Positions 30,267 through 31,457 of a DNA stretch of 54,122 bases are shown here, piece after piece. The first letter of the stretch is position 1, and every line of letters starts with the position of its first letter. Location: the NCBI GenBank assembly GCA_947576095.1, contig CANPPW010000005.1, positions 1 to 54,122 on the forward strand, in the 5' to 3' direction. The translations under genes were made by a program, and so were the position numbers. The notes under the pieces were generated by a model, which was not told where the DNA came from, did not search any database, and saw only the letters and a program-made list of their open reading frames with translations. Source of the DNA: an uncultured Mycoplasmatota bacterium. GTDB taxonomy: Bacteria; Bacillota_I; Bacilli_A; RF39; UBA660.

Positions 30267-30680
30267 CTATTGTTTTGTCTCATAGTTTTTTCCACATTTT
30301 ATATATGGATTATAAGAATATGCCCGATCTTTTTTCTCAAACTGAACATATCCATCACATTTTTGGTTCAAATCACGAGGATCATAGATTTTGATAAATA
30401 ATCCTGCATTGTTTAAAGTTTCCATCTCTATCTTTTCAGCATTGGGCATATTATTAGACTGATACTTCTGCATCATGTATTTTGTTGCAGCTGCCATTAA
30501 ATCTTCTTCCATATCCTCATATGTATATGTTACATCTTGTCTAAAAGATTCATTTGGTTTCATTGTATCCTCAAGACGTTTAAAATTTTCCTGAAATAAA
30601 ACAGTTGATAAAATCAAGGCAAATCCAATCACACCTAGGTATAATAATAATTCATTTAAAGTAAATCCCTTATGATCCAT
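30267..30680 (-). CDS. prepilin-like protein with N-terminal methylation motif
   Basis: 137 residues. The start MDHKGFTLNELLLYLGVIGF is a type IV prepilin/pseudopilin leader: a short basic leader, cleavage after Gly 5, Phe-Thr-Leu, Glu five residues on, and a long hydrophobic helix. The rest is a soluble head with two Cys (QKCDG and IKCGK) that could form a disulfide. No prepilin peptidase or pilus assembly gene is in the window. It begins ten bases after the NrtR-like gene and is probably cotranscribed with it. Confidence 0.8.
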   Translation of the reverse strand: MDHKGFTLNELLLYLGVIGFALILSTVLFQENFKRLEDTMKPNESFRQDVTYTYEDMEEDLMAAATKYMMQKYQSNNMPNAEKIEMETLNNAGLFIKIYDPRDLNQKCDGYVQFEKKDRAYSYNPYIKCGKNYETKQ

Positions 30681-30689
30681 AAATCCTCC

Positions 30690-31352
30690 TTAAAATAATC
30701 GCCTTACATCTGCATTATCCTTAAATTGATAAAGTTTTGCAGGTCTTCCATTTTTTATTTCATTTTTAAAACCTGTATCTTCTATTATATCAAGTCCTAA
30801 AATTTTTTTTCGGAAATTTCTACGATCTAGCAAATGTCCTTCGATTTGCTCACAAATAGATTGCATTTCGGGTAATGTAAAATCGCTTGGAAATAGTAAT
30901 TTTAAAATACTCGATGTTTTTAGCTTTTGCTTTAAATAATCAATCATAGAATCAATTACTTCCTCATGATTGTATCCTAATTTAGGAAAGGAATCTATAC
31001 TAAACCACTCACTCTCCACCATTTCAGGTTCCCTTCTTTTATAAGTGGCTGTAACATTATCTACTAGCGCAAGTGTGCTAACATGGACAACTTTCTCAGA
31101 CAGTGATTCTTCCTTATCTTCAAAAGCTTTAAATGTCTCTGTATATACATCACCAAGCCCTACATATTCGGTTAATAATGTATACGTATTTTTTTCAAAT
31201 GTTTCATCATAGGAAAGTCCTTTACTTGGTAATATCCAATATCCTTTATAAGGTTCCCCACTTTTTTTTATAAGAAGTATTTTTATCTTTCCTTTATCTA
31301 TTGTAAATAATCCTAATATCATCTTAATTTTAAAAGCATCTGCATCCTTCAT
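30690..31352 (-). CDS. NrtR-like transcription regulator: degenerate Nudix domain plus winged helix
   Basis: 220 residues. The N-terminal two-thirds has Nudix fold features (ILLIKKSGEPYKGYWILPSKGL), but the Nudix box, which should read GX5EX7REUXEEXGU, is GLSYDETFEKNTYTLLTEYVGL: the REXXEE metal ligands are replaced by TLLTEY, so hydrolysis is unlikely. The C-terminal part (about 150-218), with LPSDFTLPEMQ-like start, LLDRRNFRKKIL and GRPAKLYQFK, matches the winged-helix domain of NrtR, in which a dead Nudix domain senses an ADP-ribose-type metabolite. A perfect palindrome lies over its own promoter, pointing to autoregulation. Confidence 0.8.
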   Translation of the reverse strand: MKDADAFKIKMILGLFTIDKGKIKILLIKKSGEPYKGYWILPSKGLSYDETFEKNTYTLLTEYVGLGDVYTETFKAFEDKEESLSEKVVHVSTLALVDNVTATYKRREPEMVESEWFSIDSFPKLGYNHEEVIDSMIDYLKQKLKTSSILKLLFPSDFTLPEMQSICEQIEGHLLDRRNFRKKILGLDIIEDTGFKNEIKNGRPAKLYQFKDNADVRRLF

Positions 31353-31387
31353 AGTATCTCGCTCCTTTGCGTTGATAAGACACCATT

Positions 31388-31415
31388 ATTATAACAATAT
31401 TTTTGGTTTTGTCAA
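31388..31415 (-). promoter_or_regulatory. consensus promoter of the NrtR-like gene
   Basis: TTGACA (31410-31415), 16-base spacer and TATAAT (31388-31393) on the minus strand, both boxes perfect. It is placed to drive the regulator and the prepilin-like gene. Confidence 0.85.
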
Positions 31416-31426
31416 ATTTGACAAAA
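31407..31426. promoter_or_regulatory. 20-bp perfect palindrome overlapping the -35 box
   Basis: TTTTGTCAAATTTGACAAAA is its own reverse complement, and its right half contains the -35 hexamer of the NrtR-like gene. Size and position fit a dimeric repressor operator. I see no second copy in the window. Confidence 0.65.
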
Positions 31427-31457
31427 AAAAGGTAGACTTTTAAAATCTATCCTTTTT
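31423..31457 (-). terminator. terminator after rpoC
   Basis: AAAAAGG-A-TAGA pairs with TCTACCTTTTT with one bulged base, followed by eight T; it lies five bases after the rpoC stop and directly beside the palindrome. Confidence 0.7.

Follow-up and report, generated by a model that had tools for sequence, protein, structure and literature searches.

Which DNA site is used by the Nudix-type regulator encoded between the rpoBC and str operons of an uncultured gut Bacilli lineage, what does the regulator control, and what might it sense? The gene lies in a 54,122-nucleotide stretch of DNA (contig CANPPW010000005.1, assembly GCA_947576095.1; hereafter the window) belonging to a genome bin of 1.16 Mb. 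The minus-strand gene order is rpoB, rpoC, the regulator (30690-31352), a pilin-like gene (30267-30680), rpsL, rpsG, fusA and tuf. The rpsL gene was identified by Pfam and the remaining neighbours were named from their translated sequences. A preliminary description of this DNA had proposed an NrtR-like nucleotide sensor that represses its own gene at a 20-bp palindrome and may be tied to a surface function.

An NrtR-family regulator ahead of a pilin-like gene

The regulator (220 aa) is the first gene of a tight two-gene arrangement, and the prepilin-like open reading frame announced in the preliminary description follows after 9 nt. It is flanked by rpoC on one side and by the pilin-like gene and then rpsL on the other, with neither arabinose nor NAD genes at the locus. 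The protein matches the profiles NrtR_WHD (E 9.4e-20; 71 bits against a cut-off of 27), AraR_C (E 1.4e-9) and, weakly, NUDIX (21.6 bits against a cut-off of 21.1). Profile matches, alignment and an AlphaFold model (pLDDT 89) delimit a Nudix-fold sensor domain (residues 8-146; 30915-31331, minus strand) and a winged-helix DNA-binding domain (residues 150-212, with the NrtR_WHD match at 153-210; 30717-30905, minus strand). Fold matches with Z of 20-23 across 205-216 residues confirm the two domains recognized earlier and place the protein in the NrtR family, which combines Nudix and NrtR_WHD. The closest fold is apo AraR of B. thetaiotaomicron (BtAraR; BT0354, NrtR family; PDB 5bs6, 5dd4, 5ddg, 5deq; Z 23.4, 30% identity), which is also the best solved relative by profile search (E 1.9e-50). 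NrtR of Shewanella oneidensis (3gz5, 3gz6, 3gz8), an ADP-ribose-responsive repressor of NAD genes, shares the two-domain architecture (Z 20.3) but differs in recognition helix, pocket and gene neighbourhood. The NCBIfam equivalog for ADP-ribose-responsive NrtR (NF050029) scores 89.1 bits with the window protein, short of its cut-off of 400. The REXXEE box is indeed lost, with E50 and E62 the sole box residues left in the alignment. The loss does not set the protein apart, since, according to PMC4666351 (section 11), NrtR regulators have an impaired Nudix box and AraR does not conserve it. Longer regulators, in open frames of about 256-325 aa (e.g. G173:C8, G165:C1 and G040:C30), match the query in two stretches and are probably NrtR forms carrying an insert.

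Comparisons were based on 111 regulators, comprising a first set of 41 (the window and the 40 best-scoring others) and further loci from named MAGs, where 80 later loci were reduced to 71 by dropping 9 duplicates of earlier ones. The relatives sampled include uncultured Bacilli, Mollicutes, Candidatus Faecisoma and Candidatus Coprovivens. The order of a quick FastTree tree without support values separates group 1 (n=63, including L072, which an earlier grouping had put with group 2) from the paralogous group 2 (n=48); a locus from Anaerolineae (L178) was excluded from both.

The palindrome over the -35 box

The regulator has a promoter that matches the consensus at 12 of 12 positions, with TTGACA (31410-31415) and TATAAT (31388-31393) on the minus strand separated by 16 bp and TG ahead of the -10 box. 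The perfect 20-bp palindrome (31407-31426) lies across this -35 box, as reported previously. It is the sole perfect palindrome with arms of at least 10 in the window, where base composition predicts 0.17 (about 3.7 in a genome of this size), and its rarity and position are what recommend it as the operator of an autorepressor. Conservation argues against such a role. The palindrome core, TGTCAA-N0-3-TTGACA, occurs upstream of 2 of the 111 related regulators, in the window and at the distant locus L044, and is missing in the nearest relatives (63, 62 and 54% identical), which is the outcome that the preliminary description had itself named as speaking against the site. The right arm coincides with the -35 region that the regulators share, and TTGACA is found upstream of 52 of 63 group-1 genes. 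Four T bases of the left arm are shared with a U-tract that runs on to 31423 from a terminator-like hairpin after rpoC (31426-31457, minus strand, -10.2 kcal/mol, z -2.6). The palindrome also contains no GTGT-N7-ACAC half-sites. Given a core restricted to two relatives and a left arm reusing the terminator, the palindrome probably does not serve as the operator; we consider such a function very improbable, and it is best read as a -35 box mirrored by chance. As a marker of a regulon, which the preliminary description had suggested, the palindrome was rejected. The genome holds one further site within 2 mismatches (C6:9924), which likewise contains TTGACA and represents mere -35 context.

A conserved dyad as the most likely operator

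A different dyad recurs among the relatives. Exact GYGT-N7/8-ACRC is present within 100 bp upstream of 75 of the 111 regulators, where shuffles predict about 0.14, even if the loci are related by descent and such counts overstate the number of independent sites. Exact sites occur in 38 of 63 group-1 and 37 of 48 group-2 regulators (shuffle expectations 0.08 and 0.06). At a threshold of at least 7 of 8 dyad bases, 28 of the first 41 promoters and 35 of the 71 further loci carry a site. The exact dyad is missing at 25 of 63 group-1 loci, 24 of which have a promoter; some of these loci have versions with 6 of 8 bases and some have none. The copy in the window, GTGTCTTATCAACGC (GTGT-N7-ACGC; 31369-31383, minus strand), sits just past the -10 box and over the probable transcription start. 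This dyad, and not the palindrome, is most likely the operator of the regulator, as predicted from its conservation and from the BtAraR operator core.

The dyad follows the promoter differently in each group. All 38 group-1 sites are located just past the -10 box, and 33 of 37 group-2 sites lie between the -35 and -10 boxes. All 10 group-2 dyads with an 8-bp centre lie in promoters whose spacer measures 18 bp. Keeping its sequence while shifting relative to the promoter, the dyad behaves as a protein-binding site. In group 1 the element abuts the ribosome-binding site (ACACAAAGGAG; AAAGGAG at 31362-31368 on the minus strand in the window), which might point to a role of GTGT-N7-ACAC in the 5' UTR or in translation. 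Such a role is highly improbable, because the group-2 dyad occupies untranscribed DNA between the promoter boxes, so that the element cannot be an RNA feature alone, and because the dyad is identical to the AraR operator core.

The dyad appears to serve mainly the promoter of the regulator itself. Searching 117 genomes for TTGACA-N0-3-GYGT-N7-ACRC, the layout seen in group 2, yielded 18 matches, against 2 in a reversed control, and 12 of the 14 matches in family f1 are directly upstream of a listed regulator gene. The autorepression proposed in the preliminary description is thus well supported by comparative evidence once it is moved from the palindrome to the putative site at 31369-31383.

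A probable operator code shared with AraR

The DNA co-crystallized with BtAraR (27 bp) contains GTGT-TACTTTT-ACAC, and section 15 and Table 2 of PMC4666351 give the DNA contacts as Asp178, Lys179, Arg180 (intercalated), Asn181, Arg183 and Lys184. The aligned residues in the window protein are D176, R177, R178, N179, R181 and K182, within the recognition helix DRRNFRKK (residues 176-183; 30804-30827, minus strand). Both proteins have a D-K/R-R-N-F-R-K helix, a GTGT-N7-ACAC operator core (GTGT-N7-ACGC at the predicted site in the window) and a degenerate Nudix box on a common fold, and they differ in that the window regulator heads a pilin-like operon instead of arabinose genes. The pattern D-R/K-R-N-F-R-K/R is kept in 57 of 63 group-1 and 48 of 48 group-2 proteins. 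None of the six group-1 proteins with an altered helix has an in-place N7 site with at least 7 of 8 bases; five (L164-L167 and L184) have an exact GYGT-N8-ACRC variant and L055 has none. At these five loci, replacement of a recognition-helix Arg by His or Tyr coincides with the GCGT operator variant with an 8-bp centre. Since the dyad equals the BtAraR co-crystal core and the DNA-reading residues align with D176-R-R-N-F-R-K, we class the window protein as an NrtR-family regulator whose DNA recognition is of the AraR type, and probably as an autorepressor, as judged from sequence comparison.

The pilin-like partner and the extent of control

The pilin-like protein (137 aa; 30267-30680, minus strand) begins with KGFTLNELLLYLG. 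Its KG/FTLNE start represents a class III signal of the form G/F-x-x-x-E followed by a long hydrophobic helix (residues 8-40, 33 residues), and two invariant Cys lie in the C-terminal part. These features, together with pilus machinery in the genome, resemble type IV prepilins and minor pseudopilins. The resemblance is incomplete, as the window protein has no Pfam match at E <= 0.1, its ComGD score is 22 against a cut-off of 70, and Glu at +5 is kept by some but not all of the 20 family members, most of which start with GWGL or similar. N_methyl of Pfam matches one of these 20 members (E 0.016) and not the window protein. A fold search with the model of the pilin-like protein gave no PDB match at E <= 0.001, and a PDB profile search returned a Geopilin domain 1 protein alone (E 0.022). 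The first scan of genome contigs with the single protein as query gave no match.

The gene pair is conserved beyond the window. By motif, a pilin-like gene adjoins the regulator at 43 of 63 group-1 loci and at 0 of 48 group-2 loci, which supports the suspected tie to a surface function; sequence clustering places such a gene beside 20 of the first 41 regulators. In these 20 loci the gaps range from -62 to +17 nt before start trimming, and most genes overlap or are within about 17 nt of each other. The link is not obligatory, since no adjoining pilin-like gene could be recognised at 20 of 63 group-1 loci. Genes for a T2SSE ATPase, a type IV leader peptidase and a T2SSF protein (PilB-, PilD- and PilC-type) stand side by side in the same genome (L186). 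T2SSF is found in 157 of 192 relatives, and pilus machinery this general in the group lends by itself no support to the link between regulator and pilin. Tandem pilin-like genes occur in G016:C16, G017:C8, G039:C2, G046:C5 and G054:C36, and the best pilin-like match in these genomes is not beside a group-1 regulator. A narrow literature search found no earlier account of an NrtR-type regulator paired with a pilin.

The position of the pair raises the question of whether the regulator reaches further. Read-through from the regulator's promoter could tie transcription of rpsL-rpsG-fusA-tuf to the pilin-like gene, as rpsL follows within 6 kb on the same strand at 39 of 63 group-1 loci and a terminator scan saw none between the genes. 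The silence of that scan means little because it also missed the rpoC terminator. A separate promoter-like site lies upstream of rpsL (30214-30185, minus strand, 11 of 12 matches), and the regulator and pilin-like genes occur together away from rpsL at L044, L050, L058 and L059, which leaves control of the str operon unlikely.

A regulon beyond the regulator's own operon was considered and rejected. The looser pattern TATAAT-N0-12-GTGT-N7-ACRC has 28 matches across family f1 against 14 in the control, so that most of those found away from the regulator's promoter lack significance. It has three matches in the genome of the window, namely the promoter itself, C6:7235 and C14:8448 (inside an open reading frame). 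With 1 mismatch allowed, GTGT-N7-ACAC by itself does not exceed background (179 against 205 control matches). The C6:7235 match covers the -10 box of a gene for a 454-aa protein without a Pfam match (L033:1851-3215, minus strand), where GTGTTATAATAACGC falls exactly over the box (L033:3236-3258). From this placement the gene is a possible second target in the genome, and it is missing from 3 of 5 genomes of the same genus.

The sensor pocket

The nucleotide-sensing role suggested in the preliminary description is not supported by the pocket of the window protein. The L-arabinose residues Arg34, Phe36, Gly47, Gly48, Phe49 and Arg86 of BtAraR correspond to K30, G32, S43, K44, G45 and E82. The key residues Arg34, Arg86 and His131 are represented by K30, E82 and H129, and the nine AraR pocket columns read K, G, S, K, G, E, V, Y and H. 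Most of the positions that AraR uses for arabinose and NrtR for ADP-ribose are thus substituted, although His129 remains, and the cavity is unlikely to hold either ligand.

The two groups contrast strongly in these columns. Group 2 hardly varies there (R-N-G-G-A-R-M-Y-H), with a mean entropy of 0.18 compared with 1.28 for randomly drawn Nudix columns, and not one of 10000 draws came as low. Group 1 shows no conservation above that of random Nudix columns (1.85 compared with 1.97), and the clade of the window has lost the Arg86 equivalent, with E82 in the window protein and T, T and I in its three nearest relatives. Such variability could mean that the repressor is blind to ligands, the Nudix fold serving only as a dimerisation scaffold in a simple homeostat of the pilin-like operon. 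This is the main rival to a re-specified pocket, and it is a serious if doubtful alternative. Against it, a separate set of residues is nearly fixed in group 1 within two loops lining the AraR pocket, K/R36 (63 of 63), Y38 (61 of 63) and K/R124 (63 of 63), along with H129 (55 of 63), which suggests that the pocket was re-specified. Nucleotide sensing is more plausible for group 2, based on its intact pocket and its thymidine and thymidylate kinase neighbours. Group 2 (L061, L063-L071, L073 and others) adjoins thymidine kinase (L069 and L073, two tested copies) and thymidylate kinase (L071), and further neighbours are AAA_28 (L068) and a histidine phosphatase (L070).

A predicted autoregulatory circuit

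We suggest, with good though not full confidence, that the regulator is an NrtR-family repressor that would act as a dimer and recognise DNA in the AraR manner, repressing the regulator-pilin operon at 31369-31383 and binding more weakly in the presence of an effector. A regulator dimer would occupy the GTGT-N7-ACGC dyad overlapping its own transcription start and block RNA polymerase, and in this way would set the level of a bicistronic operon for the regulator and a pilin-like surface protein that may be exported and act in a pilus. By analogy with L-arabinose and BtAraR, DNA binding is probably weakened by a small effector that would occupy the cavity of the Nudix fold. The observations behind this circuit are the conservation and placement of the dyad, its identity to the AraR operator core, the near-invariant DNA-reading residues, the linkage to the pilin-like gene and the presence of pilus assembly genes.

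PMC4666351 describes AraR/XylR orthologues as found only within Bacteroidetes. The AraR code, GTGT-N7-ACAC read by D-R/K-R-N-F-R-K, probably extends past that phylum to an uncultured gut Bacilli family. More tentatively, and with the balance somewhat against it, small-genome gut Bacilli might have captured an AraR-type repressor to serve as the dedicated controller of a pilin-like surface protein, in a cassette placed between rpoBC and the str operon. Its sugar/nucleotide pocket would have been rebuilt (K36, Y38, K124, H129) for perhaps an anionic metabolite, and a paralogue with the same operator would retain an intact phosphate-type pocket beside thymidine-nucleotide kinases. If true, one operator code would serve two different metabolite inputs. 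The comparison replaces a plausible but probably mistaken assignment of the operator to the palindrome, and offers instead a testable site, a predicted one-operon circuit and a putatively re-specified pocket, in which a metabolite-sensor fold would be joined to the control of a pilus-like surface protein.
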